From positions 1-28,924 of IMG/VR virus record IMGVR_UViG_3300037584_001024: 28,924 nucleotides of DNA; one strand, 5' to 3'. The notes under the pieces are model-generated. The model ran no database searches, was not told where the DNA came from, and saw only the letters and a program-made list of their open reading frames with translations. The stretch's first letter is position 1, and every line of letters starts with the position of its first letter. This DNA comes from a virus. Below are positions 3,574-18,169 of the stretch, piece by piece. A program made the position numbers and the translations under genes.

Positions 3574-3935
3574 ACTATAATATAATCATTATCAAAAGAG
3601 TTCTCTGTAACATAATCACCATCATTCATATCGTAATAGTTGTTTGTGGCTTGATTTAATGTTTGATCTGTTACAAACATCCTATCTCTATATATTACAT
3701 TAGAGCCACTTTCTAAAGTTAGATTATAAAATCTACCTTCTTTTAAAATACTGTTCCCAGAATGCGTGTAAACGTTGTCTATGCTTATGTAATTACCAAC
3801 TGTTGTAGCACTAATACTATAAGTATAACTTTTATTAGTAGATTCATCTCTAACTTTTAATGTGCCACTACTTATAAATTCTCTGGGTATTATTTTAATA
3901 TTTTGTGAACTTGAACTCGTGGTTAATACTTTCAT
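3570..3935 (-). CDS. Small beta-rich virion-cluster protein (121 aa)
   Basis: 121 aa starting MKVLTTSSSSQNIKI, beta-rich and low in cysteine, with a middle LKEGRFYNLTLESGS and YRDRMFVTDQT and an acidic C-terminus ending NDYIIV. I chose the ATG at 3935 rather than an upstream ATG at 4013, because the upstream extension would run through a clear hairpin terminator (3970-3995) and because 3935 carries the start-proximal box TTTATATA at -13 and TGCAAAA at -33. It lies between the tube-like gene and the portal. Similar proteins occur near fibres and capsid genes of flavobacterial phages, but no function is known to me; a structural role is inferred from position. Confidence 0.7.
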   Translation of the reverse strand: MKVLTTSSSSQNIKIIPREFISSGTLKVRDESTNKSYTYSISATTVGNYISIDNVYTHSGNSILKEGRFYNLTLESGSNVIYRDRMFVTDQTLNQATNNYYDMNDGDYVTENSFDNDYIIV

Positions 3936-3940
3936 ACTAA

Positions 3941-3968
3941 TATATAAAGAAAAGTTTATTTTTTTGCA
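3941..3968 (-). promoter_or_regulatory. Start-proximal box upstream of the 3935 gene
   Basis: On the minus strand TGCAAAA (3968-3962) is followed after exactly 13 nt by TTTATATA (3948-3941), then 5 nt and the ATG. The same two-part spacing occurs at 6174 and 6970. It lies directly behind a terminator hairpin, which favours a promoter reading. Confidence 0.5.
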
Positions 3969-3969
3969 T

Positions 3970-3995
3970 AAAAAAAGGGATGCTATTAACATCCC
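3970..3995 (-). terminator. Rho-independent terminator after the tube-like gene
   Basis: On the minus strand GGGATG (3995-3990) pairs with CATCCC (3982-3977) across a 7-nt loop and is followed by seven T residues. It lies 28 nt beyond the stop of the 4023-4580 gene and just before the 3935 start box. Confidence 0.8.
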
Positions 3996-4022
3996 CTCTT
4001 TTGAAATACACACTAAAAAATA

Positions 4023-4580
4023 TTAGTTCGGTGCTATTTGGGTTCCTGATACTGTTACTTGTGCAAAAGAAGTTGCATTCATAAATGGTGGTGGAAATTT
4101 CTCCATCGCTTGAAAGCTTAAAGTGAATCCTGAAAGATCACCCATAGCTGCACCACTTACAATTGTGCCCCCGTTTACATCTGCTCCATTTTCATAACCA
4201 ACAACAAATCTATTTCCATTGTAATCCTCTACAATCACCTGTGGTCTAGAATAAGCTAAAAGCTTTAATTCCTGATTAGTACCTGCATCTAAGAAAGGTA
4301 ATGTTAAGTTTAAAACACTTTCGTAAAAAGTAGTTCCGTTTTCTCTACTAGAATTTACAGTTGTTTCTAAACTAGAATTTCCCTTTATATCAAATTTATA
4401 TGCAGTCGGTGTTCCTGTTATGTTGTTAATTGTTCCGTCAAAAGCTGATGCTGCAGGCTCATTTGAGCCATCATCAGTAGCAGTTCCTAACCCACCAAAA
4501 TCTACAAAGTAAATAGCTTTTAATCCACCTACTCCAGATTTGCAAGGTAGTCCTCTACCAGTTGTTAGTAAACACGCCAT
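4023..4580 (-). CDS. Probable major tail (tube) protein or other abundant virion protein
   Basis: 185 aa, beta-rich, without membrane segments. Visible blocks are LLTTGRGLPCKSGVGGLKAIYFVDFG at the start (residues 4-29), a central region LPFLDAGTNQELKLLAYSRP, and GAAMGDLSGFTLSFQAMEKFPP near the C-terminus. The terminal block is of the kind found in tail tube proteins, and the gene is isolated between two terminator-like hairpins right after the capsid gene, as expected for an abundantly made protein. A capsid decoration protein is the main alternative. The leader before the ATG is A-rich but lacks the TTTATATA box. Confidence 0.55.
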   Translation of the reverse strand: MACLLTTGRGLPCKSGVGGLKAIYFVDFGGLGTATDDGSNEPAASAFDGTINNITGTPTAYKFDIKGNSSLETTVNSSRENGTTFYESVLNLTLPFLDAGTNQELKLLAYSRPQVIVEDYNGNRFVVGYENGADVNGGTIVSGAAMGDLSGFTLSFQAMEKFPPPFMNATSFAQVTVSGTQIAPN

Positions 4581-4604
4581 AGTTTATTATTTTTAAAATT
4601 ATTA

Positions 4605-4628
4605 AATAAAGGGGGCTTTTACACCCCC
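4605..4628 (-). terminator. Hairpin terminator after the major capsid gene
   Basis: Minus-strand GGGGG (4628-4624) pairs with CCCCC (4615-4611), loop TGTAAAAG, followed by TTTATTTAAT. The T tract is interrupted, so termination may be partial, leaving read-through to the tube-like gene. Confidence 0.65.
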
Positions 4629-4635
4629 TCTTATA

Positions 4636-5595
4636 TTATGAATATAGTACTACTTCTGATCCGATGCCATACTGTACACCACTTGTAAATCTCATAATGA
4701 TTCTCACATTTTGATCTCCAAGAGTTTCAGATGTGTCAATTAAGCGTACTTCTGCGTGATCTGATAAAAGACCAGTACCGAAATATAGGTTGCTTTTTTG
4801 TGCACATACCATTTTGTTAGAAGCAAGTCCAGGTGCTACAAATAAATTAACACCATCAAAAGATAATGCTCCATTGTTCCACCATTGTGTTCCTTGTGCA
4901 TTTACACCATTAGCACCTAATCCTGATGCTCCAAAACCTCCTAATGCTCTTACATAAGCCTTAGCTACATTTTGTGGAATGTAAATAAATAGATCTTCTT
5001 TTCCGTAGATTTTACTAGGAATAGCATCTACTACTTTGCCTAATTCTGAGATTACATTTGCAGCAGTTACAGTTCCCGCAGTTACATCTACTACATCACT
5101 ATCTGATCCAAATAAAGTTACGAATCCATCAAATTCACCTGCATTACCATTCGCACCACCCCAGATAGTTTCTTCTGTTTTCTCTGCTACTTTTGCAGCA
5201 ACGTGAGAAATTAAGAAATCTGAAAACTTAGGCGGCATATTATCGTATGCTGAAATGCCCATAGCAATCGCTTCCCAGTCGTTTCTGTAATCTTTCTTAC
5301 ATAATTGTAGGTTTACTTGGAACTCTTCTGGCTGTAATATTCTTTCTGTTAAAGTAAGAGCATCAGCAGTTAAAGAGAAATCACAAGTAGCATCTGCAAC
5401 AATACCACTAGATGCAACCTTTTTAATTACTTCTTTATACTTAATGTTGGGCTTTACAGTAATCCCTCCATTAGAAATTGTAGCACCACTCAAAAGTGCA
5501 GCAGCGATATAATCTCCTGCAAATTCACCAGCATAAGTTGTCGTTAAGCTGTTTAATGAGTTATCTACATCTAAATTAATTTTTCTTGTACTCAT
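4636..5595 (-). CDS. Major capsid protein, HK97-type fold
   Basis: 319 aa. The C-terminal third reads KSNLYFGTGLLSDHAEV then VRLIDTSETLGDQNVRI, ending with GVQYGIGSEVVLYS, which matches capsid proteins of Bacteroidota siphoviruses; the earlier EEFQVNLQLCKKDYRNDWE region fits the E-loop and spine-helix part. The protein forms the icosahedral shell. It follows the scaffold gene by 21 nt and is closed by a hairpin, so it can be a strongly expressed unit. The N-terminal roughly 40 residues could be cut by the XkdF-type protease encoded upstream, but no cleavage site can be read from the sequence. Confidence 0.85.
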   Translation of the reverse strand: MSTRKINLDVDNSLNSLTTTYAGEFAGDYIAAALLSGATISNGGITVKPNIKYKEVIKKVASSGIVADATCDFSLTADALTLTERILQPEEFQVNLQLCKKDYRNDWEAIAMGISAYDNMPPKFSDFLISHVAAKVAEKTEETIWGGANGNAGEFDGFVTLFGSDSDVVDVTAGTVTAANVISELGKVVDAIPSKIYGKEDLFIYIPQNVAKAYVRALGGFGASGLGANGVNAQGTQWWNNGALSFDGVNLFVAPGLASNKMVCAQKSNLYFGTGLLSDHAEVRLIDTSETLGDQNVRIIMRFTSGVQYGIGSEVVLYS

Positions 5596-5618
5596 TTTAA
5601 TTATTGATTTTAATTATT
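5595..5618 (-). repeat. Short direct repeat in the capsid gene leader
   Basis: The 11-mer AATAATTAAAA (minus strand) occurs twice, at 5618-5608 and 5605-5595, the second running into the ATG of the capsid gene. A-rich leaders favour translation in Bacteroidota, so this may be a translation enhancer for an abundant product; chance is also possible in such A+T-rich DNA. Confidence 0.4.
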
Positions 5619-6174
5619 ATTTATTTTTATTAATCATTGCAAGCACTCTGTCCATAGTCGTTTGACTTCTATTTTGTGAGTACAATACTTTTTTCTTTTC
5701 ATTTACTACCTCTGGAGAATGCTTGATAGGTTCTGCAGCAGGCTGTGATAGTTCTTCCACTACCTCTTCTGGTAATTCATTACTCATTTCTTCTTTCTTA
5801 CCCATTGATTCTTTCATATCCATTACCATTTTCTTTAGAGCATCAAACTCATCTTTGGTAGGGTATTTCTCCTCATTCATATCTTCTTTCTCTTCTTCTT
5901 CTTCCTTTTCATCCTCATACTCTTTTTTCTCATAACCTAGATCAGCAATAATACCTTCTTCTTCGATTTTCAGCATATCGCCTGATTCCATTTCATATTC
6001 CCCCACAGGTAGAGCTACCTTAGTATCTTCGGTAAGAATAAATACCTCGTTGCCAGATGCAAACTTCTCAGCTTCTAAAACTGTTCCATTCTCTAGCTTT
6101 AATTGTTCCAATCTCACCTCTTCGGATGGATTGATTACATCCTTGATTTTATTTAACATTTCTGTTGCTTTCAT
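5617..6174 (-). CDS. Capsid scaffold-like acidic protein
   Basis: 185 aa, very acidic and low complexity in the middle (EDEKEEEEEKEDMNEEK at about 88-104), with predicted coiled-coil helices (KDEFDALKKMVMDMKESM) and a basic end NRSQTTMDRVLAMINKNK. The order protease, acidic helical protein, capsid protein is the usual protease-scaffold-capsid set, and basic C-terminal helices of scaffolds bind capsid subunits. It would act inside the procapsid and be degraded by the protease. The leader has TTTATATA at -13 and TGCAAAA at -33. Function is inferred from context and composition. Confidence 0.65.
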   Translation of the reverse strand: MKATEMLNKIKDVINPSEEVRLEQLKLENGTVLEAEKFASGNEVFILTEDTKVALPVGEYEMESGDMLKIEEEGIIADLGYEKKEYEDEKEEEEEKEDMNEEKYPTKDEFDALKKMVMDMKESMGKKEEMSNELPEEVVEELSQPAAEPIKHSPEVVNEKKKVLYSQNRSQTTMDRVLAMINKNK

Positions 6175-6179
6175 ATTAT

Positions 6180-6207
6180 TATATAAATTAAAAATTACTA
6201 TTTTGCA
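6180..6207 (-). promoter_or_regulatory. Start-proximal box upstream of the scaffold gene
   Basis: Minus-strand TGCAAAA (6207-6201), 13 nt, TTTATATA (6187-6180), 5 nt, ATG at 6174. Same spacing as at 3935 and 6970. It lies in the short gap after the 52-codon gene. Confidence 0.5.
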
Positions 6208-6216
6208 TTTTGTTTA

Positions 6217-6375
6217 TTAAATTCTTCCAATACCCTGTGCGTGTAACGATCCATCGCAACAATCTATATGGTATCTATCATCCTTACATAAACAACCCTT
6301 TCTGCTTCCATAGGGGCTTGTTCTACTTGGTGTAACAAATTCTGTTACCTTTTTTTTAAATCTTTTAGTATGCAC
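6217..6375 (-). CDS. Small Cys-rich protein between protease and scaffold (52 aa, GTG start)
   Basis: 52 codons from GTG at 6375; the codon before it is a stop and no ATG exists in frame, so GTG is the only good start. The basic N-terminus (HTKRFKKKV) is followed by YGSRKGCLCKDD, IDCCDGSLHAQGIG. The CxC and CC pairs could bind a metal, and the C-terminal CCDGSLHAQGIG pattern resembles short proteins I associate with flavobacterial phage capsid clusters. It overlaps the protease stop by 11 nt. Role unknown; a capsid-assembly accessory protein is a guess from position. Confidence 0.6.
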   Translation of the reverse strand: MHTKRFKKKVTEFVTPSRTSPYGSRKGCLCKDDRYHIDCCDGSLHAQGIGRI

Positions 6376-6970
6376 TTAATATATTTTTTATTTGATCTAT
6401 TAAACCTTGTGCATTATCTTCTTTACTTAATTCGCTTTTTGGTTTATCTTTAGGTCTTTCCATTTTATCTGCAAAATAACCCTCTATGCTAAAGCCCTTT
6501 ACCTTTCCTGTCTTTACAAACTCTTGCCAGATCTTCTCATTGTTTACTTTTACAGCACCCATCCAAGTACCCATCGGCACATTCATATCATACTTTCTAG
6601 ATTTATCGTGGGTTTCATCCTCTACTATCCAACTTTCTACTAAGCTTAAACCATTTAAACTATGCTGATGTTCTAGTGTAGTTTTATTTTGATTGCCTTT
6701 CATTAAGTATAATTGTGATGCTTTCTGTACTGTGTCTTTAGAAAAGTATATGTAATATTCTTCTGCACCATTACTTCTGTAAATAGGTTTATTAGGAATT
6801 AACAAAGCCCCTAATAAGATTCTTTTCTCATTATCTACCTCTGCTAATTTAACCTCTTGTGATTTAAGAGCAATAAAATCTTCTTCTATCGCAGGATTCT
6901 CTACTACTGATATTGCTTCAATACCACCTAGCTCATCCATTTCATCAATTACTAATTCTATAACTTTCAT
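6365..6970 (-). CDS. Prohead maturation protease, XkdF-like
   Basis: 201 aa. The core (about 50-165) contains GALLIPNKPIYRS, YYIYFSKDTV, TTLEHQHSLNGLSLVESW and KGFSIEGYF, the pattern of the XkdF putative phage serine protease family (Phage_XkdF). His101 or His103 and Ser161 are candidates for the catalytic residues known from capsid proteases of the herpesvirus-protease type; I infer this from motif positions. It would process scaffold and capsid inside the prohead. Gene order protease, small protein, scaffold, capsid supports this. Upstream, 35 nt after the tape measure stop, it has the two-part start box. Confidence 0.85.
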   Translation of the reverse strand: MKVIELVIDEMDELGGIEAISVVENPAIEEDFIALKSQEVKLAEVDNEKRILLGALLIPNKPIYRSNGAEEYYIYFSKDTVQKASQLYLMKGNQNKTTLEHQHSLNGLSLVESWIVEDETHDKSRKYDMNVPMGTWMGAVKVNNEKIWQEFVKTGKVKGFSIEGYFADKMERPKDKPKSELSKEDNAQGLIDQIKNILSAY

Positions 6971-6975
6971 AATTA

Positions 6976-7003
6976 TATATAAATTAAATTTATTTTTTTT
7001 GCA
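6976..7003 (-). promoter_or_regulatory. Start-proximal box upstream of the protease gene
   Basis: Minus-strand TGCAAAA (7003-6997), 13 nt, TTTATATA (6983-6976), 5 nt, ATG at 6970. It fills the whole gap between the tape measure stop and the protease start, and would allow the head module to be transcribed apart from the tail module. Confidence 0.5.
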
Positions 7004-7005
7004 TT

Positions 7006-8805
7006 TTAATCTCCAAGACTTGCACCTTGTATAATATTATTCTCTAAACTTTGTGCAGAGGTTACATCCTGACTTACAACAAAAGCCTGTACTGGTTGTT
7101 GTTCTTGTTGTGCTATGCTTTGTGCTAATTGATTCTCTGGAGATGCACCAACAATATTAAATGCAGGTGCTGCAGTTCCCTGTGCTATTGCTGATGGTAA
7201 AGCCCCACCACCACTTTGCCCTGGCACTTTTACTGACATTATATTTTTTACGTTTCCAATACCCGTAGATATTACCGTAAACATAGCAGCTATTCTTGCA
7301 AACGTACTAGGTATTGTTTCATCTTTTAATGTTTTGTTTGCAGCATCATAAGTATTCATTAAAGCACTAGCTACTGCAAAAGCTTTACCTGCCACAGTTT
7401 GCTGTCCTAATAATTGACTAAGCGATTGTGATGCATCTGCAAATATTCCTAAAGCACTTTTCTTTGCTTCCTGTGTTTCTTCTTCTATTTCTACCTCAGC
7501 AGTTTTATATTTATCATTTATCTCTGCTAGTTTCTTTTTTTCTGCTTCATCTAACTCTGCAAGTAAAGGTGACATAATTCCATAATGCTCTATGATTTGT
7601 TGTCTTAATTTAGAAAAATGTTCTTCGTTTTTTCTTATTTCTTCTGCTTGTCTTTCTGCATCTGTGTCTATAAGAGCCTGTCTGATAGCTTCTATTTCAG
7701 AAGCCTTTTGTTTTTCTCTATTGATTGCGTTAGCATCTCTCTTTGCCTGTTCGTTATCCTCTATCTGTGTTACACTATTTTCAAAACCTGCTAAAGTATT
7801 TTTTAAGGTGTTTAATTTGTTCTGTGTAGTTTCAATAGATTTATCTGCTTCTTCCTCTACTTTCTCAGGATCAAAAACTAACTCAGCTATTCCCCCAAAT
7901 AATCCCTCTGTCAATCCAAAATCTTTACCAAACTGTTTACCAATAGCATCTATGCTTCTTAATAAGATAGCTAATGGTGCTGATATAAACTGCAATACTC
8001 CAGACAAAATAGCTTTGTTTCTTTCAGCAGCTTCTAACTGTGATTCTTTTATTTGTTTCTGTGTTTCTAATTGTGCTTCTAATTGAGATATAACAGCTTT
8101 TGTTTGTTGTACCTTTAAGCCTAATATTTCTTTCTCTGTTTTGCCTTGTTGTTTAAGGATGTTTTCTGATCCCTCTATTGCCTTAAATCTTTTTTCCTCT
8201 TCTGCTACCGCTTCACTTTGTTTCTTTAATAGGTCAGTCGTTTCAGTGCTTACACCACTAACTAATTTTTTTATCTTATCAAAGTTAGCTATTAACAACC
8301 CAACAGCTACAATTACTGCACCTATTCCTGTTGCGATTAATGCCTTGGTAAAAACACTTACACCCCTTGAAGCACTTATAAATCCTAATCTTGTTAGCCT
8401 TAAAAGTTTTACACCTTTTCTCAGTTGCCCAAAATATCCACCTGTTACCATATTTAGAGCAGCAGTATTTTCTCTGCTCTTAATTAATTCCTTAGAAATA
8501 AACCCTTGTCTTTTCTGAAAACTTATATCTGCTTTAGCTTCTTGCTTCTGGAGATTTAAACTTTTTAAAGCAATTCTCTGTTCTTTTAATGAATCTGTTA
8601 CTCTGTCAATAGATGCTTGTACCTTTTTTCTAGCACCTAATTGAGATTTAGGTATATCTTCTTGGATTCTTTTTAATCTAAGCAGTTCTTCTTCTAACTC
8701 AATAGTTATTTTTTTCTGCTCTAATATTGTATCTGTAAGTTCTTTAAAGGATTGCTCTGCTTGTTTCAGATCACCCCTAATCCTAATTACTCTTTCTTCT
8801 GCCAT
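7006..8805 (-). CDS. Tail tape measure protein
   Basis: 599 aa, long coiled coils (about 10-110 and 185-460), one hydrophobic stretch ALIATGIGAVIVAVGLLIA (155-173), a second at about 266-285, then a helical Ala/Ser-rich region and a Gln/Ala-rich C-terminus. This is the usual composition of tape measure proteins, which set tail length and help DNA entry. By the usual rule of about 0.15 nm per residue the tail would be near 90 nm. The start overlaps the 47-codon gene by 23 nt. Oddly, it precedes rather than follows the head genes. Confidence 0.8.
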   Translation of the reverse strand: MAEERVIRIRGDLKQAEQSFKELTDTILEQKKITIELEEELLRLKRIQEDIPKSQLGARKKVQASIDRVTDSLKEQRIALKSLNLQKQEAKADISFQKRQGFISKELIKSRENTAALNMVTGGYFGQLRKGVKLLRLTRLGFISASRGVSVFTKALIATGIGAVIVAVGLLIANFDKIKKLVSGVSTETTDLLKKQSEAVAEEEKRFKAIEGSENILKQQGKTEKEILGLKVQQTKAVISQLEAQLETQKQIKESQLEAAERNKAILSGVLQFISAPLAILLRSIDAIGKQFGKDFGLTEGLFGGIAELVFDPEKVEEEADKSIETTQNKLNTLKNTLAGFENSVTQIEDNEQAKRDANAINREKQKASEIEAIRQALIDTDAERQAEEIRKNEEHFSKLRQQIIEHYGIMSPLLAELDEAEKKKLAEINDKYKTAEVEIEEETQEAKKSALGIFADASQSLSQLLGQQTVAGKAFAVASALMNTYDAANKTLKDETIPSTFARIAAMFTVISTGIGNVKNIMSVKVPGQSGGGALPSAIAQGTAAPAFNIVGASPENQLAQSIAQQEQQPVQAFVVSQDVTSAQSLENNIIQGASLGD

Positions 8806-8926
8806 CTTTAATTTGTTTAATTGCTTCCCTTAGATTTGTAGCTAATTTATATTTTCCCTTTGCGATTCTTATCTCTTCCGTTTCGTTTGTTGCAAACTTC
8901 AAACCCTCTAATATTGTTTTTATCAT
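8783..8926 (-). CDS. Small basic helical protein before tape measure (47 aa)
   Basis: 47 codons, MIKTILEGLKFATNETEEI then a Lys-rich helix ending GRRKSN. It fills the gap between the 696-aa distal tail gene (4-nt ATGA-type overlap) and the tape measure gene (23-nt overlap in another frame), so translational coupling is likely. No family recognised. Position suggests a tail assembly or tape-measure-associated role, but that is only context. Confidence 0.55.
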   Translation of the reverse strand: MIKTILEGLKFATNETEEIRIAKGKYKLATNLREAIKQIKDGRRKSN

Positions 8927-11013
8927 ATTTTTACAATTAGTTCTAAATCACTTTTATTTGTTAATAGATTTGTTTTAATACTATTAATCCTATATTGTTT
9001 ACCATCTATTACAAAGACATCATTTAAATTATAGTTAATTAATATTTTCTGCGGTAGATATGCTTTTAATTTTAGCAATCTGTTTCTTCTGTTAAATATA
9101 TCCTGTATATATGTTTTATAATAATTATTAAACAAAGTTCCTGTGAAAGAGGAATCACCACTAAACTCATTAGTCATTAATCCAAAGTTTATATTTGCTG
9201 TGCTTGTACCAGGTGTAAGGCTTAAACTATTAGATGGCACATTATAACTTGTCAAACTTACTGCTGATGATGCAGATTCCTGAAAAGAGATTGCTAATGA
9301 TGCTGTTCGGTGTATAGGGTAAAAAAGTAAAGGTAAATCTTTATCAGGCTGTTGATCTTTATTTACACTCCATCCCCATTGTATAGATGTTTTAGTTCCC
9401 CCCGTTGTATCGTTTATATCAAATAATGTTTCAAACATAAAATGCTCAAAGGGTAACTCTACCTTATAACTGCCACCATCTATCTTTGTAGCTAAGCTAT
9501 CCTCATTATATCTTAATGTGCCCCACTCTTCATTGTTAATTTCTTTGTAAGCATTAGCCAGAAAACTTTTTAAACCTTCAAATCTAAATATAATTTCACT
9601 ATAAGGTAATGCTACATTTGATTGACTAGAGCTTACATCCACAAACTCTGTAATGTCATAACTTGTTCCTGTGGAATTAAAAGCATCCAAAGTGTTTACA
9701 AATATAGTTCCATCTTCTTGCTCAAACGCTACAAGGTTGAACATCTTAAACAAACCTGTCAAAAAATCTATAACTTTCATTTCAGGTATCTGTTCTGTGA
9801 TTACGAAGTCAAACTGATTAAAAGCTGTGAATGGTGCGGCATCAAAAGATTGTGATGCAAACCCACCCTCTTCCTGTTGTACAATCCATCTACATTTAGT
9901 TAATGTTTTATCAGCAGTATGTGTAACACTTACAGTCCAATCACCTGCAGCAAAAGATTGCAAGTTTCCTGGAGATGAAACCCAACCCTGTATTCCTAAT
10001 TCACCCTGTACCATTGTTGTATTTCCTGTTAATTCTGTTTCTTCTCTTCTTAACACCCCATCTTTATAAACTTTGATCCCATATGATACGCTATCGGTTG
10101 ATTCTATCACAAGTTGCATATTGGTTAAACTACCTAATCTATTATCATCATCCCAATCACTCGTGATTCTTAGTGTAGAATCATCCACCATATTAGCATA
10201 TGTATTGCCTGAAGTGGGTGTCCAATTATCAACAGGTGTTTCTAATATTTGAACTTCTGTGCCTGTGCTAACTACTTGTTCTGGTGCTCCTGATTTTCTA
10301 TGTAACCACATAAATAAATGATCATACACATCATTAGTGTTTGTAAAAAAATCATTAGAGAAAGTTAAACCATATTTAGTTTCAATTGCTTCTACTATTT
10401 TTCTAACCCTGATCGCATATTTAAGCTGATTCCAAACTACTCCTCTGTGTTTACCTGTATGTGGGTAAAGATTGCCTGTGTCTTGTGAAGCAGTATCACC
10501 ACTATCATAATATAATCTTGTGGTGTGAGTAATTAAAGGCGCTATGACATCATTTATATTTTGACTAGTTTGTAATCTAGATTTTACTGTTGACATATTC
10601 CATATGAGATTCAGGGAGTTTAATGGTGTTAAAGTATTTAATTTATCTTCACCGATTAGATCCTTTAAATCTACAGTATTACCAAAGAAAACTATTTTAT
10701 AAGTATGTGCTTTATTAAATTTTAATGATACACTATTTAATTTTATTTTACCTTTTTTAAAATCTACTCCATTTAATTTTATTAAAGCATCTTTTTTTGT
10801 TCTTGCATCATAACCATTATCTATATCAAAGTTATAATAGTGTTTAAATATTTTGTTGTTTACCCTACTAGCTGGTAAAGAAAATTGTTGAGAAAACGCA
10901 GTGAATATCTTTTTTATATCTCTAACATTTTTAAGAGTATCTGTTACTGTAATAGATTCATCTTTAAATAAATCTACTCTTTGCCCCTCTATATATAATT
11001 CAAGGTTTTGCAT
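8923..11013 (-). CDS. Distal tail / baseplate-like protein (696 aa)
   Basis: 696 aa, no membrane segment. The N-terminus reads LELYIEGQRVDLFKDESITV, then TAFSQQFSLPASRVNNK (about 38-54), and the C-terminus NLNDVFVIDGKQYRINSIKT and SDLELIVKI. I know this N- and C-terminal pattern from large tail proteins of Bacteroidota siphoviruses, located between the completion proteins and tape measure. It would be part of the tail tip and may carry the fibre. Its start shares the last base of the upstream stop. The function is family-by-pattern; no enzymatic motif is seen. Confidence 0.65.
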   Translation of the reverse strand: MQNLELYIEGQRVDLFKDESITVTDTLKNVRDIKKIFTAFSQQFSLPASRVNNKIFKHYYNFDIDNGYDARTKKDALIKLNGVDFKKGKIKLNSVSLKFNKAHTYKIVFFGNTVDLKDLIGEDKLNTLTPLNSLNLIWNMSTVKSRLQTSQNINDVIAPLITHTTRLYYDSGDTASQDTGNLYPHTGKHRGVVWNQLKYAIRVRKIVEAIETKYGLTFSNDFFTNTNDVYDHLFMWLHRKSGAPEQVVSTGTEVQILETPVDNWTPTSGNTYANMVDDSTLRITSDWDDDNRLGSLTNMQLVIESTDSVSYGIKVYKDGVLRREETELTGNTTMVQGELGIQGWVSSPGNLQSFAAGDWTVSVTHTADKTLTKCRWIVQQEEGGFASQSFDAAPFTAFNQFDFVITEQIPEMKVIDFLTGLFKMFNLVAFEQEDGTIFVNTLDAFNSTGTSYDITEFVDVSSSQSNVALPYSEIIFRFEGLKSFLANAYKEINNEEWGTLRYNEDSLATKIDGGSYKVELPFEHFMFETLFDINDTTGGTKTSIQWGWSVNKDQQPDKDLPLLFYPIHRTASLAISFQESASSAVSLTSYNVPSNSLSLTPGTSTANINFGLMTNEFSGDSSFTGTLFNNYYKTYIQDIFNRRNRLLKLKAYLPQKILINYNLNDVFVIDGKQYRINSIKTNLLTNKSDLELIVKI

Positions 11014-12149
11014 TAACGTATGTTGTTTACAGTTTGGAAAGCAAATTCTACTTCTATCGTATAATCTATTAACTTATCGTTAACATTTGTTTTATATCCT
11101 AAATTGCTAGATGTTATGTGAACAGGCAAATTGTTACCCTCATAATCTATCCACACCATCTCACTCAGCATTAATTCTTTAAATATAAGATTGTTCCCCT
11201 CTGGATAGTGCCCACTATTTAACACAAGCTTTTGGGTTGCGTTTTTACTCAGAATTTTTTTCTGATGGCTATATGTGTTATAAATACCATCTACAACTAT
11301 ATTGCTCTTGTAAGTTTCCTCCGTTGTATTGATCGATAGATTAGATCTTTTAAACATCCATAAATCCTGTAATGCTCCATACTTATTTACAAATACTAAT
11401 TTGTAGGGCTCATATTTACACTCTTCTATATTTGTAACACGCAATTTTGTAACACCCTCTGTTGCACTCACAAACACTTCATCTACTCCATAAATACCAA
11501 ACTCACCTAAAAAGCTTTCTAAACAGAAACTATCTTCAAATATTCCCCCATCTTCCAAAACTCTATCCTCATATCCATCAGCACCTGCTTGTGATTCATT
11601 TGTGATATATTCTATTCTTAGTTTACTATCTGTTACATCTGCTACAAGGTCTGTATATATTTCTTTACCCTTATAAAAAAAACTCACACTTGTCGTATTG
11701 TTAGGATCAACAGGTATTCTTAATGGTGCATCATCAGGTTTTAATATAGTTGTGTTGCTGATCAATAAACCCTCTAATAAACTTGGGTTAACACCATCTT
11801 CAAAATATCCATACCCATCATAAGCAATGATTCCTAATACTGCTGTGTCAGGAGTTTGTGCTGTTCCTGAAATACTTTTAGTTATTCTGTAATCTACGTT
11901 AATCGTTGAATATAAATTTGTTGTATTATATTCTCCATCAAAGCCTGTTGTTAAATAATCTCTTACTAATTCACTTATCTCGAAAGATACTTTTGCACTA
12001 TATGCAGTTGATGTTAATGAATACGTTACACTACCGCCCCAACTACTACTTGCAGTTCCTGTATATATGTAAATCTCTAATTGTGCTGATGTCAAATTAC
12101 TAGCACTTACATTTATAAAGTATGGGCTTCTTACATTTATCTTAGCCAT
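11013..12149 (-). CDS. Tail structural protein (378 aa)
   Basis: 378 aa, beta-rich. Visible blocks are SPYFINVSASNLTSAQLEIYI at the N-terminus (residues 8-28), a central EYITNESQAG, and ECKYEPYKLVFVNKYGALQD (about 245-264) followed by LWMFKRSNLSINTTEE. The KLVFVNKYGALQDLWMF pattern recurs in distal tail proteins of Bacteroidota phages. It lies between the HK97-gp10-like and the 696-aa tail genes and overlaps both by a few bases, so the three are probably translated together. A distal tail role is inferred. Confidence 0.6.
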   Translation of the reverse strand: MAKINVRSPYFINVSASNLTSAQLEIYIYTGTASSSWGGSVTYSLTSTAYSAKVSFEISELVRDYLTTGFDGEYNTTNLYSTINVDYRITKSISGTAQTPDTAVLGIIAYDGYGYFEDGVNPSLLEGLLISNTTILKPDDAPLRIPVDPNNTTSVSFFYKGKEIYTDLVADVTDSKLRIEYITNESQAGADGYEDRVLEDGGIFEDSFCLESFLGEFGIYGVDEVFVSATEGVTKLRVTNIEECKYEPYKLVFVNKYGALQDLWMFKRSNLSINTTEETYKSNIVVDGIYNTYSHQKKILSKNATQKLVLNSGHYPEGNNLIFKELMLSEMVWIDYEGNNLPVHITSSNLGYKTNVNDKLIDYTIEVEFAFQTVNNIR

Positions 12150-12696
12150 TTAAATTTATTTCTTGGTTTTTAATATCATTATATATTTGTCCTTCTAAAT
12201 CTAGTGCGTATGCTTTTAGTATATCATCTGGTAAATACTTCATTACTTGGTTTAAAGCTTTAGTTAAAAACATACTAGGTGCAATACCTCTAAACCAAAT
12301 GCTTCTTACTATTAAATGTTGTAATGATTTTTGTGTAATAAACCTACCTGTTTTTTTATCTCTTCCTTTTATTCCTCTTCGCTTAATCCATTTCTCTATC
12401 CCGTCAGTTAGTCCACCTTTTTTTCCTGTGCCAGATCCAAACCTGTATGGACTATTAGGTGCTTTGTTTCCGCTTCCCGTTCCTTGCACCCCTTGATCTA
12501 TAAACTTAGCATAGTCCTTCGCAAATATACTTAGGTCAAAACTACCTACCCCTGTTTTAACTTCCTTTCTAATACTATTTAAAAGAGCACCAGATACAAC
12601 TTTCTTTTCTTGTTTTAAGTTAGCCTTGCTTTGATTAACCAAAAACTTAGCATAACCATTTAATATCTTTTTTAATTCTTTAGGATCTTTTAACAT
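12142..12696 (-). CDS. HK97 gp10-like tail completion / neck protein
   Basis: 184 aa, basic. The first 65 residues (LVNQSKANLKQEKKVVSGALLNSIRKEV, seen at 19-46, then FAKDYAKFIDQGVQG at 58-72) match the HK97 gp10-like pattern: helix, 'tGaLr.Si', beta strands, 'Ya.fvd.G'. A glycine- and lysine-rich insert with PNSPYRFGSGTGKKGG and a helical C-terminus follow. Such proteins complete the tail at the neck. It overlaps the upstream tail terminator-like gene by 7 nt. Confidence 0.7.
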   Translation of the reverse strand: MLKDPKELKKILNGYAKFLVNQSKANLKQEKKVVSGALLNSIRKEVKTGVGSFDLSIFAKDYAKFIDQGVQGTGSGNKAPNSPYRFGSGTGKKGGLTDGIEKWIKRRGIKGRDKKTGRFITQKSLQHLIVRSIWFRGIAPSMFLTKALNQVMKYLPDDILKAYALDLEGQIYNDIKNQEINLNG

Positions 12697-13160
12697 ATCG
12701 TAATGTCATTGTGTATTAATATATCAAAGGTACTAGCCCATCCTGCTAATCTGTTTTCAAACCTTTCATAAAAAGGCTCACAGCTTGCCACCCCATCTAA
12801 CTGATATAAATCTGTATGTAATGTGCCACCTCTTAAAACACCGATCAATTTATTTACCACTCCTAATTGTGTATTTAATATATCGTGTTCATTATTGTTG
12901 CCTACAAACTTATCTGCTCCCTCTTCTTTATTTTCATCTACAATATCCATTGTTAGGATCGTTACATTAAATCTTAACACTTGATCTTCTTGTGATACGT
13001 TATTTATAATAATATGTGATAATGGAAATATAGTTTGCTTATTTAAATCTACATCTGTAATATCTCCTGTGGTTACTGTGTTACAATTAACATCCGATAA
13101 CAACTGCTCTTCTATTTTAGTTAACACTAAATAAAAGCCCCTTATACCTTTATGGCTCAT
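12690..13160 (-). CDS. Tail terminator-like protein
   Basis: 156 aa, mixed alpha/beta with no membrane segment. Visible are FYLVLTKIEEQLLSD near the N-terminus, FPLSHIIINNV, LNTQLGVVNKLIGVLRGG and a C-terminal EPFYERFENRLAGWASTFDI. This arrangement, with a final strand pair after 'EPF..RFEN.LAGW', is what I recall for tail terminator or completion proteins of Bacteroidota phages. Its place directly before the gp10-like gene supports this. Assignment is from pattern and order. Confidence 0.55.
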   Translation of the reverse strand: MSHKGIRGFYLVLTKIEEQLLSDVNCNTVTTGDITDVDLNKQTIFPLSHIIINNVSQEDQVLRFNVTILTMDIVDENKEEGADKFVGNNNEHDILNTQLGVVNKLIGVLRGGTLHTDLYQLDGVASCEPFYERFENRLAGWASTFDILIHNDITIC

Positions 13161-13282
13161 CTCTTATATGTTTTAAAATTATATATTGCAATTCTAAATA
13201 AGATAATTAATAGGATAATAGAATATATATTTAGGTGGGGCTCACCACATAAACCTAATAGGTGCTTTATTGTTTCAATCAT
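13157..13282 (-). CDS. Small one-TM protein in tail cluster (41 aa)
   Basis: 41 codons, MIETIKHLLGLCGEPHLNIY then a hydrophobic helix (about 19-36) and a basic tail NFKTYKR. Its start overlaps the stop of the frameshift ORF (ATGA at 13282-13279) and its stop overlaps the next start (ATGA at 13160-13157), so both junctions are coupled. The LGLCGEPH motif is one I associate with small membrane proteins of flavobacterial phages. Function unknown. Confidence 0.6.
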   Translation of the reverse strand: MIETIKHLLGLCGEPHLNIYSIILLIILFRIAIYNFKTYKR

Positions 13283-14009
13283 TTAAAACCTTTTTTAATT
13301 AATCTTTGTTCTATCTCTTGTTTCTCTTTTTCAAATGTCAGATAGTATAAACATTTGTGTATATTTAATTTAGTGATATTTTCAAATCTTGTAATGTCGC
13401 CTTTAGCGAGTGCATAAATGGAGTTATACCATCCATACTTTCTAGTAAAATTTGTTGCTCCATCAAGTTGTCCTTGTCCGCTTTCTGAATATAGCTGGTC
13501 ATAACTTTGCATAAGTCGATCCCTAAATTGTAAAAAAAAACAACCGATCCAAATACAATTCCTAAAGGCATATTGTTATAGATCTGAAAATTGCCTGGCT
13601 CATACTCCTCAATAATATATTTATCTCCTTTTTTTAATGTAACAGGTCGATACAATACTGCCATTGCCTTTTCAATCTCTTCCCACTTTCCAATATAAGT
13701 ATCCAAATCTACATACTCACCGAAACTCATATCATCTAGATTAGGTATAAAGCCATATTCAATCCCATCCATTTTAAATCTATTTATCAGTATGCTTTTG
13801 TTTTCTAATATGTCAAATATTTGTGCAGTTATGCTTGTGATATCATCAGCCCTCATTCTTCTTATGCTAACATACGGGATGTTACAAAATATTTTAATTG
13901 TTTCTATTTGCAGTTGTGTATCTGTTAAATCTTTTAATGAAGCAAACTCTTTATATTGTTTTAAAGTTATATCATTTAAACTTGTTGGTACTGTTATGCT
14001 AGTTTTCAT
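13279..14009 (-). CDS. Tail assembly chaperone, long form by -1 frameshift (gpGT-like)
   Basis: Predicted fusion of the first 159 codons of the frame-0 gene with a -1 frame that ends at 13279, giving about 243 aa. In the slip zone frame 0 reads GTT TTT TTT TAC; slipping back one base on T-TTT-TTT continues as TTA CAA TTT. The -1 tail contains SESGQGQLDGATNF, KYGWYNSIYALAKGDITRF and ENITKLNIHKCLYYL, a conserved-looking pattern in Bacteroidota phages, and ends just where the 41-codon gene starts. In lambda the gpG/gpGT pair made this way is needed to assemble the tail tube on the tape measure. Frameshifting is inferred from frames and motif. Confidence 0.65.
13365..14009 (-). CDS. Tail assembly chaperone, short form (gpG-like)
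   Basis: 214 aa in frame 0. Features include SLNDITLKQYKEFASLKDL near the N-terminus, FIPNLDDMSFGEYVDLDTYI (88-107) and AVLYRPV (117-123). Size, position between terminase and tail genes, and the overlapping -1 ORF fit the G/GT chaperone pair. After the slippery run, both frame 0 (55 codons, ending ITPFMHSLKATLQDL and ISLN) and -1 stay open, so the stretch 13365-13531 is dual-coding. The gene has TTTATATA at -13 and a 36-nt gap after the terminase stop. Confidence 0.7.
   Translation of the reverse strand: MKTSITVPTSLNDITLKQYKEFASLKDLTDTQLQIETIKIFCNIPYVSIRRMRADDITSITAQIFDILENKSILINRFKMDGIEYGFIPNLDDMSFGEYVDLDTYIGKWEEIEKAMAVLYRPVTLKKGDKYIIEEYEPGNFQIYNNMPLGIVFGSVVFFYNLGIDLCKVMTSYIQKADKDNLMEQQILLESMDGITPFMHSLKATLQDLKISLN
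13532..13540 (-). other. Slippery T9 run, -1 frameshift site
   Basis: Nine T on the minus strand. In frame 0 they read (G)TT TTT TTT T(AC), so T TTT TTT (13539-13533) is a legal X XXY YYZ heptamer. Slipping back one base joins residue 159 to the -1 frame. Confidence 0.65.
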
Positions 14010-14014
14010 ATTAA

Positions 14015-14022
14015 TATATAAA
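14015..14022 (-). promoter_or_regulatory. TTTATATA box upstream of the tail chaperone gene
   Basis: TTTATATA at 14022-14015 on the minus strand, 5 nt before the ATG at 14009. The upstream element is only approximate (AACAAAA, one base off the spacing seen at 3935, 6174 and 6970). Confidence 0.45.
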
Positions 14023-14044
14023 CTTTTTTAATTTATTTTTGTTA

Positions 14045-15208
14045 CTAATTTATTGTATATCTTCCAAAGTTAGGTCTGCTTAATATACTATAAGTCGCAT
14101 ACCTTACTGCATCTATAATGTGATTGTTCTTATCTTCTGGAATATTTGTTAGCTTTCCGCTCTTATCTTCTTTCCATTTATAATTCCTGAACTCCTGAAT
14201 TGCATTGTTACTTGTAGAAGTAATAAAAACCTTATACCTCTTCAATAAATCGATTCCAGCATTTACACTATCCCTACCCTTTAAACTAGGTCTAATGTTC
14301 CAACCCATTCTTCTTAATTCTTCTATTAATCTCGGCTCACTACTATCCATATATAATTGATTTCTTGCAACCCCTACCTCCTTAAATGTATTGTGTAGAT
14401 CTTTAGTGGTCATTTGTGTTCTGTATAAATGTTCTTTAATATAAAGATTATAATCTAAACTATAAACACTTACAAGTGTTGAGGGATCATTGGAGTATCC
14501 TGCATCTGCACCATATGCTATAAACTTAGCATCTTCAGGTATCTGTGAGCATTCATAATAATTAAATATAGTAGCTTTGCTTATACCCTTTAATCCTAAT
14601 CCATATATCTGCCAGTATTGTTCATCCGTTTCTTTTAATCTTTCTATCTCGGATTTAATGCTTTGTTCTAAGAAAGGATTATCTAAATAAGTTGTTCTAA
14701 AGAAATCACAATCTTCTCTAGGTATTACTTTATCATATATCCAATGGTATTCGTCACTCGGATTGTAATCAATTATAATTTTGCCATCTGTTCTAAATAT
14801 TAATTGTTGCCAATCTTCCCAATTTAACTCATTAGCTTCATTAATAAATAACAGGTTTCTTTTTCTACCTCTTACCTTTTGTGGCATATCTAAGCTAATA
14901 AACTCTACAAGATTATTAAACAACCTATACTCGCTATTGGATTTATTGTGATCCTCTTCTTTGTATATATTTAATTTACGCAATATGTCTAGGAAATCAC
15001 GCATTACCGAAGCTCTTAAACTAGGAAAGGCTTTTCTGCAGATTGTTATTGTTTTGTTTCGATTACTCGCACAATATTGCAAGATAATCCATAAGAGTAT
15101 ATTATATGTTTTACCAGATCTTGTACCACCCTGTTCAACAATAATTTTTTTATTACTATTGATGAGATGCTTATAGACTTTATTGGTTTGTATCTTCTGT
15201 TTTATCAA
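14045..15208 (-). CDS. terL: Terminase large subunit
   Basis: 387 aa. ATPase domain: Walker A GGTRSGKT (27-34), Walker B NLLFINEANE (118-127), coupling motif around IIIDYNPS (144-151). Nuclease domain with the three expected acidic positions: D235 in YGADAGYSNDP, D288 in LYMDSSEPR and D366 in NNHIIDAVRYA. It packages and cuts phage DNA at the portal. The sequence is of the PBSX/Terminase_3-type. The start overlaps the small terminase gene by 29 nt. It follows directly on the modification cassette, so base modification and packaging genes may share a transcript. Confidence 0.93.
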   Translation of the reverse strand: MIKQKIQTNKVYKHLINSNKKIIVEQGGTRSGKTYNILLWIILQYCASNRNKTITICRKAFPSLRASVMRDFLDILRKLNIYKEEDHNKSNSEYRLFNNLVEFISLDMPQKVRGRKRNLLFINEANELNWEDWQQLIFRTDGKIIIDYNPSDEYHWIYDKVIPREDCDFFRTTYLDNPFLEQSIKSEIERLKETDEQYWQIYGLGLKGISKATIFNYYECSQIPEDAKFIAYGADAGYSNDPSTLVSVYSLDYNLYIKEHLYRTQMTTKDLHNTFKEVGVARNQLYMDSSEPRLIEELRRMGWNIRPSLKGRDSVNAGIDLLKRYKVFITSTSNNAIQEFRNYKWKEDKSGKLTNIPEDKNNHIIDAVRYATYSILSRPNFGRYTIN

Positions 15209-15539
15209 TTATCTCTACTTGAAAATTAGTAGGCACCCCATCAGCACCTGTGATCTCTTGTCTTTCTACATATCCTCTTTTCTTTCCTTTTGTTTTCAAA
15301 TAAAATATAGTCGCACTTGTTGAGTTCTCGGCTATCTGTCTGTGTAATTGTGATTCAGCAAAATCCAATGCTACATTCTGCACATCATCTACTTGCTTTT
15401 TAAATTCTAGATCTGTGTTATACCAGTCATAGTAAGTTGTTCTGCCTATGCCCACTTTCTTACAGGCTGTTGTAACAACTCCCAAAGATTTTTCTAATGC
15501 ATCTAATAATGCCTTTTTATGCTGTTCGGTTTTGTTCAT
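15180..15539 (-). CDS. terS: Terminase small subunit
   Basis: 119 aa from ATG at 15539; an in-frame TTG two codons upstream is possible but less likely. The N-terminal half holds a helix-turn-helix, VTTACKKVGIGRTTYYDWYN (about 22-41), followed by helices EFKKQVDDVQNVALDFAESQLHRQI and a C-terminal TKGKKRGYVERQEITG. This is the usual form of phage small terminase that recognises packaging sites. The start overlaps the dioxygenase gene stop by 23 nt. Next to terL the call is safe. Confidence 0.85.
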   Translation of the reverse strand: MNKTEQHKKALLDALEKSLGVVTTACKKVGIGRTTYYDWYNTDLEFKKQVDDVQNVALDFAESQLHRQIAENSTSATIFYLKTKGKKRGYVERQEITGADGVPTNFQVEIIDKTEDTNQ

Positions 15540-16407
15540 TTTCAATACTATTTTTATAATCTTTTGCTTCTTTTTTTCTTTGTCGTAATGAATCTAAATG
15601 ATCAGGATCTAATCGATTAGCTTCACGCACCATTTTCTTTTCTCTAATTCTGTCAATCTCTTCTTCTATTGTATTGCATTGCCACATTCTTTCTAGTGAA
15701 TAATAAACAACACTATACCTATAAGCCTTATTATTTCCATACTCAATAGGGCTAACTCCGTGTAGTAAATCTTGTCCATCGAATATAGTCAATGAATTGT
15801 CTGCTACTTCTAATGATATATCTAGTTCTGGTATTACCAAATGTCCACCCTGCACATCTCCTTTAAACACAACCATATTGCTGTAAACATTTTTAAAGTT
15901 ACCAGAATCGTAATGATATTTTAATTGATTGTTTTTGTTTACAATACCGCTTGTAAATACACTATTATTAATTACCCATTGTTCTTTTACCTTATCTTTT
16001 ACTTTGTTTTTGTGTTCGCTAAATGTTTCAGGAAAGAACTCGTGATAGTATTTAGATACTTCTTGTGCAAATCTGCTAATAACATAATGCTGTTTAGGGT
16101 GTGAGGTTCCCATTGCACTAGCACTACAATAATCGTGTTTATTTTCTTGTCTTGGATTATAGCCAAATACTGCGCTTGTGTTGACTAGTCCGTGTGTTCT
16201 TTTGCCTGTTCCGTATTTAATGTTTTTGACTGCCCATCGCACATCGTTTGGTTTCTTGGGTAAAATCCTGTAAAGTAAAATGGGCTTGTTGTTATGATAT
16301 ATAATTACATCATCTTTTATATGTCTGCTTACATCTGATAACATCGCTGTTCTTCTGATATAATCTTTTTTGTCAATTGGTTTTCTATCTACATCTATTC
16401 TTCTCAT
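15517..16407 (-). CDS. TET/JBP-type 2OG-Fe(II) DNA base dioxygenase
   Basis: 296 aa. The double-stranded beta-helix core shows the iron ligands H165 and D167 in YHYDSGN, GG at 187-188, the distal H216 in LLHGVSP and R230 in YRYSVVYY for 2-oxoglutarate. Upstream, VFGYNPRQENKHDYC (80-94) matches the 'G..pr...r..yC' pattern of the TET/JBP family. Known members oxidise 5-methylcytosine or thymine in DNA. The C-terminal helix (250-296) is Lys/Arg-rich. Its start overlaps the glycosyltransferase stop (ATGA), and its end runs into terS. Phage TETs in published work act on 5mC, but no cytosine methyltransferase is in this window, so the substrate is open. Confidence 0.85.
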   Translation of the reverse strand: MRRIDVDRKPIDKKDYIRRTAMLSDVSRHIKDDVIIYHNNKPILLYRILPKKPNDVRWAVKNIKYGTGKRTHGLVNTSAVFGYNPRQENKHDYCSASAMGTSHPKQHYVISRFAQEVSKYYHEFFPETFSEHKNKVKDKVKEQWVINNSVFTSGIVNKNNQLKYHYDSGNFKNVYSNMVVFKGDVQGGHLVIPELDISLEVADNSLTIFDGQDLLHGVSPIEYGNNKAYRYSVVYYSLERMWQCNTIEEEIDRIREKKMVREANRLDPDHLDSLRQRKKEAKDYKNSIENEQNRTA

Positions 16408-17147
16408 CGCATATCTTTTAATCTTAATTCAGCATTGCCTGTTGTTTTTCTAATATACATTTTACAAAATTCAGGAAACATACTCTGTATTTGATATATA
16501 GAATCATATACATATTGTTTTGTTCTTATCTCTTGTAGCCCCCCCTGTTCTTTATAATAATTTGATTTAACTGTTAAGTAATCTAATCTTACAAGCCTTT
16601 TGTTTCTTATGTATTGCCTAATACTATATTCATAATCCTCTCCGTGGTTTGTAACACGATCTAAAAATTTATCGTGATCAACAATGACACCAAACATAGA
16701 AGCAATTATATAGCATAGCTTTGTATATATTCTGTTCTTCATAAAATACGGATTGCCTGCTGCATAAATACCAAAGGTTTTAGCTTGTATTTGCTCACAA
16801 GCATTAAATCCTTTATAAAAGACGTCTTTTTCCAAATCCTCAACATCTATTAGCTTATTACCTTTTTTTCTTTGCACCTTTTCTATATCATCATCAAACA
16901 TCATTAGCCTTGTACCCTCATCATAATACTTCTCAATAAAGTTTCTTTGTTTGCCAATGGTGGGCACACCTACAACAATTTTATAATTATCCGCAAGGCT
17001 TTCTTTGTATATTTTTTCTTCTTCTTTGTTTGCTACAAAAATTGTAATCAGATCTTTACTAATATTATAATCCGATAAAAGCCTTAATGTTTTCTTTTTT
17101 ATTGTTTCTGGTCGCTTATAAGATGGTATTGCAATTTTATAATCCAT
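16404..17147 (-). CDS. TET-associated glycosyltransferase-like GT-A enzyme
   Basis: 247 aa from ATG at 17147 (a TTG three codons earlier is less likely). The N-terminal IAIPSYKRPETIKKKTL is typical of GT-A enzymes, VPTIGKQRNFIEKYY precedes the acidic DDD (85-87, in LMMFDDDIEK) that would bind the metal and sugar nucleotide, and NHGEDYEYSIRQYI (about 162-175) supplies a later acidic motif. This order matches the TAGT family predicted to glycosylate bases hydroxylated by phage TET/JBP enzymes. It is tied by overlaps to the ParB-like gene upstream and the dioxygenase downstream. Sugar and linkage cannot be told from sequence. Confidence 0.75.
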   Translation of the reverse strand: MDYKIAIPSYKRPETIKKKTLRLLSDYNISKDLITIFVANKEEEKIYKESLADNYKIVVGVPTIGKQRNFIEKYYDEGTRLMMFDDDIEKVQRKKGNKLIDVEDLEKDVFYKGFNACEQIQAKTFGIYAAGNPYFMKNRIYTKLCYIIASMFGVIVDHDKFLDRVTNHGEDYEYSIRQYIRNKRLVRLDYLTVKSNYYKEQGGLQEIRTKQYVYDSIYQIQSMFPEFCKMYIRKTTGNAELRLKDMR

Positions 17148-17718
17148 ACTTATCAATTAAAAATTTAAATGCCTGTGTGTTGTCCGTAAGGCTTTCTTTT
17201 TCTCTTATTGTTTCTAGATCTTTAACTGCCTTTTCATACTCATCTGCATTAAAATACAGGGTTATTTGCTTTACCTTTGCATTTATATATGTGTCTAATT
17301 CTTGATGAAAAATATCTTTGTCAACTTCAGGCTCCTCGTCCTCATCAAAATATATTCTAGGCAGATCTAATCCCCATTCCTTTAATTCATTTAACTCCCA
17401 TTCGTTTGCCAACACATCCCAGTCCCATTCTCCAAAGCTACTGTTATCTTTAATAACAAATTCTTTTTTTTGTTTTTCTGATAAATCATCTGCCTGTATA
17501 ACATAAACATTTTTTAAACCCGCCTGCACTGCAGCCTTGTATCGCATATTGCCACCCAGTATAATATTGTTCTCATCCACAACAATTGGTCGCAACTGCA
17601 TCATTTCTGGAAAATCCTTAATGCTTTTTACAAGCTTGTTAAATTTATAGTCCTTAATTACCCTTGGGTTTTGTGGATTGTTTTTAATTTTATCTATGTT
17701 TATTTTTATAGGTTTCAT
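17137..17718 (-). CDS. ParB-like nuclease-domain protein of the modification cassette
   Basis: 193 aa. The ParB/Srx-type core is at 1-95: NNPQNPRVI (13-21), QLRPIVVDENNIILGGNMRYKAA with the GGNMR box (55-59) and DDLSEKQKKEFVIKDN. Then FGEWDWDVLANEWELNELKEWG (95-116), which in many phages precedes a DNA methylase domain; here no methylase follows, only an acidic linker and a short alpha/beta tail. Such ParB proteins often sit beside DNA modification enzymes, and TET/JBP-TAGT-ParB neighbourhoods have been predicted in phages. It heads the cassette, with TTTATATA at -13. Whether it is a nuclease, CTP-switch or adaptor is not clear. Confidence 0.75.
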   Translation of the reverse strand: MKPIKINIDKIKNNPQNPRVIKDYKFNKLVKSIKDFPEMMQLRPIVVDENNIILGGNMRYKAAVQAGLKNVYVIQADDLSEKQKKEFVIKDNSSFGEWDWDVLANEWELNELKEWGLDLPRIYFDEDEEPEVDKDIFHQELDTYINAKVKQITLYFNADEYEKAVKDLETIREKESLTDNTQAFKFLIDKYGL

Positions 17719-17723
17719 ACTTA

Positions 17724-17731
17724 TATATAAA
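17724..17731 (-). promoter_or_regulatory. TTTATATA box upstream of the ParB-like gene
   Basis: TTTATATA at 17731-17724 on the minus strand, 5 nt before the ATG at 17718. The upstream element is weak (AATAAAA at the expected position). It would start the modification-terminase unit. Confidence 0.4.
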
Positions 17732-17736
17732 TTTAT

Positions 17737-18159
17737 TTAATTTTTTTTATTTAAATTTTTAACAGGCAACTGGTTTACTATTCTATAAATTCTATTTACA
17801 TAATCATCACTTATGTAATCTATCTTATGTTTTATTGTTTCTCTTTTTAATCTCTTTAATTCATCATCAGTATATCTTTGCTTAAAAATATCAAACCATT
17901 CATCTAGCTTTTCATTATACTTTCTATATACTTCAAAATTTCTTAAGCTGTGTAAAGCTGTTGCGTGATCATAACTCTTGCCCATACTTTTATAAAAATC
18001 CTTTATATCATATAAAGTAAAATTGTAATGATTCCTTAATATGAAATTAAATAAAGATCTAGGCTCTGTATGTTTTCTGCTTCTGCTTTCTTCAAATATA
18101 TCTACCCCAGATAAATCTTTTAATAGTTGCACTATTTGTTTTATTTCTTTATTCTTCAT
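17737..18159 (-). CDS. Stand-alone DnaA domain IV-like DNA-binding protein
   Basis: 140 aa from ATG at 18159; an in-frame TTG at 18186 inside the preceding gene would add 9 residues but ATG is preferred. Residues 25-75 look like the DnaA C-terminal HTH: RSRKHTEPRSLFNFILRN, YDIKDFYKSMGKSYDHATALHSL, where DHATALHS replaces the family's DHSTVLHA signature that contacts DnaA boxes. No AAA+ ATPase precedes it, so it is only the DNA-binding part, plus a basic helical C-terminus. It could bind the phage origin or compete for host DnaA boxes, or act as a regulator. Domain call is good, role inferred. Confidence 0.7.
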   Translation of the reverse strand: MKNKEIKQIVQLLKDLSGVDIFEESRSRKHTEPRSLFNFILRNHYNFTLYDIKDFYKSMGKSYDHATALHSLRNFEVYRKYNEKLDEWFDIFKQRYTDDELKRLKRETIKHKIDYISDDYVNRIYRIVNQLPVKNLNKKN

Positions 18160-18169
18160 CCTCACTTTT

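Follow-up and report, generated by a model that had tools for sequence, protein, structure and literature searches.

Five genes in a 28.9-kb stretch of viral DNA (IMG/VR record IMGVR_UViG_3300037584_001024, positions 1 to 28,924; hereafter the window) are directly preceded by an element of two short boxes ending at the start codon. The element is probably the late promoter of a phage group, read by the host RNA polymerase together with a phage-encoded sigma factor resembling those of the extracytoplasmic function (ECF) class, and the head mRNAs of the late operons would then be leaderless or nearly so. The window phage appears to be a marine Bacteroidetes phage. Only two contigs of Bacteroidia/Bacteroidetes metagenome-assembled genomes were matched in a scan of genome contigs, and a Bacteroidetes host is thus indicated tentatively. 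A DNA-level search against isolated phages gave no match to the window; the nearest cultured members found here are the two Nonlabens phages P12024L and P12024S, with approximately 35-36% portal identity. Relatives were collected from IMG/VR by a protease scan (374 relatives) and a capsid scan (549 relatives), and the best 80 of each were kept.

Two boxes ahead of late genes

The first-pass annotation of the window, made from sequence, had placed TTTATATA exactly 13 nt before five minus-strand ATGs (3935, 6174, 6970, 14009, and 17718), and all five were found as described (Table 1). It had further claimed TGCAAAA 33 nt before three of these ATGs with 13 nt between the boxes, and this box was located at -33 to -27 of 3935, 6174, and 6970. 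At 14009 the first box is AACAAAA and begins at -34. The statement that all five follow intergenic gaps holds except at 17718, where the gap is 18 nt and the upstream half of the element extends into the end of the gene before it. A degenerate sixth copy had been proposed at the portal ATG (3573) inside coding sequence; the coding location was confirmed, but the candidate was rejected as a copy, as it encodes NDYIIV-stop, lacks box 1, and has box-like bases that are not conserved in relatives.

Table 1. Coordinates of the source contig, the two-box elements, and associated features in the window
Feature	Position	Strand	Details
Source contig			28.9 kb, linear; IMG/VR virus; 31% G+C; minus strand carries nearly all genes
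Probable late promoter element, gene 3570-3935	3936..3971	-	TGCAAAA 3962-3968, 13 nt, TTTATATA 3941-3948; matrix rank 4; conserved in relatives
Probable late promoter element, gene 5617-6174 (scaffold-like, then major capsid)	6175..6210	-	TGCAAAA 6201-6207, TTTATATA 6180-6187; matrix rank 2
Probable late promoter element, head protease gene 6365-6970	6971..7006	-	TGCAAAA 6997-7003, TTTATATA 6976-6983; matrix rank 1
Probable late promoter element, gene 13365-14009	14010..14045	-	AACAAAA 14037-14043, TTTATATA 14015-14022; matrix rank 5
Probable late promoter element, gene 17137-17718 (ParB-like)	17719..17754	-	degenerate A-rich box 1, TTTATATA 17724-17731; matrix rank 3
Intrinsic-terminator-like hairpin	3970..3996	-	GGGATG-loop-CATCCC + T7; fold -12 kcal/mol; T-run ends -34; abuts 3935 element
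Candidate ECF-sized sigma-70-like factor, 171 aa	21285..21800	-	P12024L_35 homolog; family profile; AlphaFold, Foldseek/VIA matches to ECF sigmas

By itself TTTATATA is not enriched in the window (14 occurrences, 9.6 expected), and the significance therefore resides in the register. The 16-mer TTTATATA-N5-ATG was observed five times, compared with a mean of 0.285 and a maximum of 3 in 200 third-order Markov sequences, in agreement with the earlier claim that A+T richness alone is unlikely to give a constant register. Within 60 nt upstream of called starts, five of six copies of TTTATATA lie at -13, and when spacings of 0-29 nt were counted on both strands, no spacing gave more than two TTTATATA...ATG matches, the five excepted. 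A scan with the E. coli sigma-70 consensus yielded 77 promoter-like matches versus 97 in shuffled sequences, a result that is uninformative.

The regions upstream of orthologous genes, to which the first-pass annotation had pointed as a check, carry the boxes in register in dozens of diverged IMG/VR relatives as well as in P12024L. Among nonredundant orthologs, both boxes precede the protease gene in 26 of 31 cases, the scaffold-like gene in 17 of 27, and the gene starting at 3935 in 19 of 23, whereas they precede neither the capsid gene (0 of 30) nor gene 4580 (0 of 32). Box 1 takes the forms TGCAAAA, TACAAAA, and AAACAAA, with RCAAA(A) as the general form. For box 2, the window clade has TTTATATA and other relatives CGATATA, CGTTATA, AGTTATC, CGTTATC, or CGTTAAT. 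P12024L carries seven such elements ahead of late genes, one of them at the start of the terminase operon (22090), and P12024S shares this architecture.

A matrix trained on eight boxes from other phages, with which both window strands were scored, gave ranks 1-5 to the window elements, each ending at an ATG. In addition, a blind scan of IMG/VR was performed with GCAAAA-N14-CGWTATAT-N4-8-ATG, leaving protein information unused. The scan found at least 120 stretches, and 118 loci were analysed; among the matches listed, 111 of the 118 loci encode relatives of the late proteins of the window phage, and the ATG opens an open reading frame of at least 100 codons at 111 loci. The control scan with an N9 spacer found 82 stretches, and none of the 80 analysed were relatives.

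A phage-encoded candidate for the sigma factor

The reader of the promoter is likely the ECF-sized sigma factor encoded at 21285-21800, as suggested by its family and predicted fold. Gene 35 of P12024L contains a sigma region 2 (PF04542, 1.4e-5), P12024S likewise encodes a sigma region-2 protein, and 21285-21800 is the window homolog of the P12024L gene (phmmer 2.5e-4). When the sigma family was compared with PF04542, 14 of 24 members matched at E<=0.05, the best at 1.3e-8, and the family profile matched region 2 of SigR (1h3l) at 1.2e-6 and SigH at 4e-5 in the PDB, both of which are ECF sigma factors. In the AlphaFold model (mean pLDDT 78.7), a low-confidence linker (residues 87-104) joins two helical domains, and the best whole-chain Foldseek matches are ECF sigmas with a probability of up to 1.00. 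The helix-turn-helix of region 4 is apparent from the fold, residues ~105-171 matching sigma-4 domains with a root-mean-square deviation of 1.7-2.7 and a Z of ~9; Pfam r4_2 was detected in just 2 of 24 family members. Regions 2 and 4 only, a short linker, and a length of 171 aa (limit ~200 aa) correspond to the ECF layout. Sigma homologs are present in 28 of 33 long contigs of relatives, the remaining five including several shorter ones, and a tblastn search of the window sigma against phage isolates gave no match. One phage closely related to that of the window (IMGVR_UViG_3300017727_000149) carries a second, divergent sigma-like gene (L168:7638-8162, E ~1e-22) that is absent from the window.

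The type of -10 box follows the sigma clade. Mapped onto the tree of the sigma factors, the types of -10 box require nine changes, the minimum possible, compared with a mean of 20.3 after shuffling. One -10 type is common to the promoters within a genome in 18 of 21 cases by script; L073 was added as the 19th by eye, the script having misclassed TGTTATATA, and L070 has a single-base -10 difference at one gene. Several unrelated promoters per genome with an identical -10 variant are predicted if a shared trans-acting factor reads them.

Some observations weigh against this reading. The window protein alone is weak in Pfam (Sigma70_r2 14.9 bits, cutoff 24), and its assignment as a sigma factor draws on its family and its predicted fold. 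The TM-scores of the whole model are just ~0.3-0.4, which is attributable to the low-confidence inter-domain linker and the resulting uncertain domain placement. The 17718 element has a degenerate A-rich stretch instead of a clear box 1. In L050 (IMGVR_UViG_3300000117_001812) the boxes are discordant, with CGATA before the protease gene and AGTTA before the 3935 ortholog; this is a real exception, the contig being recombinant, in transition, or mis-assembled. Lastly, shared vertical descent could partly explain the agreement between -10 type and sigma clade.

A host ECF sigma factor, or the host RNA polymerase with another phage activator, might instead read the promoter, with the phage sigma serving another purpose, but this is rather unlikely. 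The ECF-type motif SM6 of Flavobacterium psychrophilum does have a conserved CGT box in its -10 region (PMC9723704), comparable to the CGTTA of most relatives. However, a host factor should keep the -10 box constant, whereas the box (TTTATATA, AGTTATC, CGTTAAT) diverges by clade alongside the phage sigma, and the frequency of the sigma gene among the long contigs also speaks against a host reader.

In phages of a type with a more distant sigma factor (G028 type; L297, L210, L221, L220, L222, and L217), a T-run is followed by AACCTATTTAATA and then by the ATG, AACCTATTTAATA occupying the same position as the element. AACCTATTTAATA is possibly the promoter version of these phages, and AACCTATTTAATAG, of which there are few copies, may be a promoter at the equivalent place in G028-type phages.

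Promoter behaviour and the predicted start of transcription

The first-pass annotation had left a choice between a late promoter giving almost leaderless mRNAs and a translation element. The latter would be an AT-rich, unstructured stretch that provides a Kozak-like start context with A at -3 and -6 and has no promoter role. Flavobacteria use A at these two positions (PMC6847099) and the box supplies both, but box 1 sits 27-33 nt from the ATG, and in its spacing, its ATG-less copies, and its placement behind terminators the element behaves as a promoter. Box-1-to-box-2 distances in nonredundant relatives show a sharp maximum at 20 (64 pairs versus ~8 expected), and in the CG and AG clades the boxes keep a constant 19-20 nt, whereas the distance from box 2 to the ATG varies from 12 to 16. 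In two relatives (L175:8471 and L188:9237), the same two-box element stands ahead of the gene for the terminase small subunit but does not end at an ATG, and the leader would be ~21 nt long. Among 23 nonredundant relatives of gene 3935, 18 have an intrinsic terminator whose end is 32-43 nt ahead of the ATG, so that only the element remains between terminator and gene; because the terminator abuts the element, transcription would have to re-initiate within it. The major capsid gene also lacks the element in all 30 nonredundant relatives, and a pure translation signal is highly unlikely. Of the earlier proposal, the late promoter with almost leaderless mRNAs was well supported: the element is conserved, keeps its spacing, follows terminators, and is linked to the phage sigma. 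The translation element was disfavoured and the resemblance to T4 was not supported.

In the proposed mechanism, the host RNA polymerase would carry the phage sigma, with sigma-4 on box 1 and sigma-2 on box 2. Box 1, RCAAA(A) (TGCAAAA in the window), would function as a -35-like box and TTTATATA, or CGWTATA, AGTTATC, or CGTTAAT in relatives, as a -10-like box. Since the latter ends 5-6 nt before the ATG, transcription would start at the A of the ATG or a few nucleotides from it. The motif-to-start distance of 6-8 nt of phiEco32 sigma-36 leads to a similar prediction, namely a start at or just past this A for TTTATATA ending at -6. The head mRNAs of the terminase, tail, protease, scaffold/capsid, and portal units would be transcribed late and translated without, or nearly without, a leader.

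A variant of the host housekeeping sigma-A promoter (TTTG/TAnnTTTG) is very improbable: TAnnTTTG promoters exist in some relatives, mostly at other genes and usually with leaders, but the TAnnTTTG -7 box occurs in none of the five elements. Chance or A+T richness has a negligible probability; the 31% G+C content and the unenriched box would suit it, but the register, the conservation observed in diverged relatives, and the matrix tests do not.

For this widespread phage group as a whole, chances are somewhat better than even that each phage encodes its own fast-diverging ECF-type sigma and has promoters fused to late-operon ATGs, so that the sigma switch is at the same time a switch to leaderless mRNA, with clade-specific sigma/-10 pairs. 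If true, one element sets both late transcription and start-codon-first translation. Leaders in F. psychrophilum have a median of 24 nt and 5.5% of its mRNAs are leaderless, and in F. johnsoniae 87% of leaders exceed 10 nt. Because flavobacterial mRNAs usually have leaders, the predicted leaderless late mRNAs would be unusual for the phylum, which lacks Shine-Dalgarno sequences and in which leaderless messages are rare. The element makes late regulation readable across a large, uncultured group of marine phages with hundreds of IMG/VR relatives, and a probable sigma factor comes with it. The natural series of matched sigma/-10 variants is material for studies of sigma-promoter co-evolution and a possible source of orthogonal parts for Bacteroidetes genetics. 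No transcriptome of this phage group was found in the literature search, nor was any system combining a phage-specific ECF-like sigma with start-codon-fused promoters of two boxes and a clade-varying -10 box.

Downstream of the ParB-like gene lie genes for a glycosyltransferase, a TET-like oxygenase, and the terminase small and large subunits. At 15517-17156 the TET/JBP-type oxygenase (PF12851, 1.4e-13) adjoins the TET-associated glycosyltransferase (PF20691, 5e-17); the pair belongs to the late operon that starts from the 17718 promoter and is likely a DNA base hypermodification cassette. A 149-aa protein encoded at 17737-18186 weakly matches the C-terminal DNA-binding domain of DnaA (5e-5, under the cutoff). 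An intergenic tandem repeat at 24523-24616, made up of TTATATAG x 3.9 and 29-mers rich in TA, is extremely AT-rich and may be a replication origin or regulatory region.

Comparison with known systems

The T4 late promoter has an AT-rich -10 box, TATAAATA, and the late genes are driven via a phage sigma-like protein (gp55/gp33/gp45); phage-encoded sigma factors also include SPO1 gp28 besides T4 gp55. The comparison of the window box with the T4 late promoter, made in the first-pass annotation, was not upheld, as a further conserved box lies ~20 bp upstream of the -10-like box, the -10 sequence differs from clade to clade, and the candidate factor combines a sigma-2-like with a sigma-4-like domain. 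Membership in the T4 type was rejected: the box is TTTATATA/CGWTATA/AGTTATC/CGTTAAT and not TATAAATA, and an RCAAA box stands at a fixed spacing where the T4 type has none.

According to the available text of two reports (PMC4281155, PMC4331800), gp36 of the Kuravirus phiEco32 is a sigma-70-class phage sigma that directs transcription of middle and late genes by the host RNA polymerase, with an AT-rich motif tAATGTATAtA located 6-8 nt upstream of mapped starts. Like the window sigma it is phage-encoded and of the sigma-70 class, but no specific sequence relationship between the two was found by hhalign (probability 0.8%, helix-turn-helix only). The phiEco32 motif TAATGTATA is absent from all five window elements. 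As far as that text describes them, phiEco32 promoters have neither a -35-like box nor a fusion to the start codon, whereas the window elements have a -35-like box and adjoin the ATG.

The TA-led leaderless genes of Actinobacteria and Deinococcus-Thermus have TANNNT ~10-12 bp before the start codon, where transcription starts (PMC3160421). The window resembles them in having a -10-like signal before the start codon, TTTATATA lying at -13 to -6 in five genes. In contrast to their sigma-70-like -10 box, the window has a phage-specific two-box element, and this in Bacteroidetes. Flavobacterial ECF promoters (SM6) have a CGT -10 box that resembles the CGTTA of many relatives, and the flavobacterial ECF sigmas and the sigma of the window group likely belong to the same class. 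Unlike in the flavobacterial system, the sigma factor is encoded by the phage and would be specific to late genes, and the box of the window clade is without CG.

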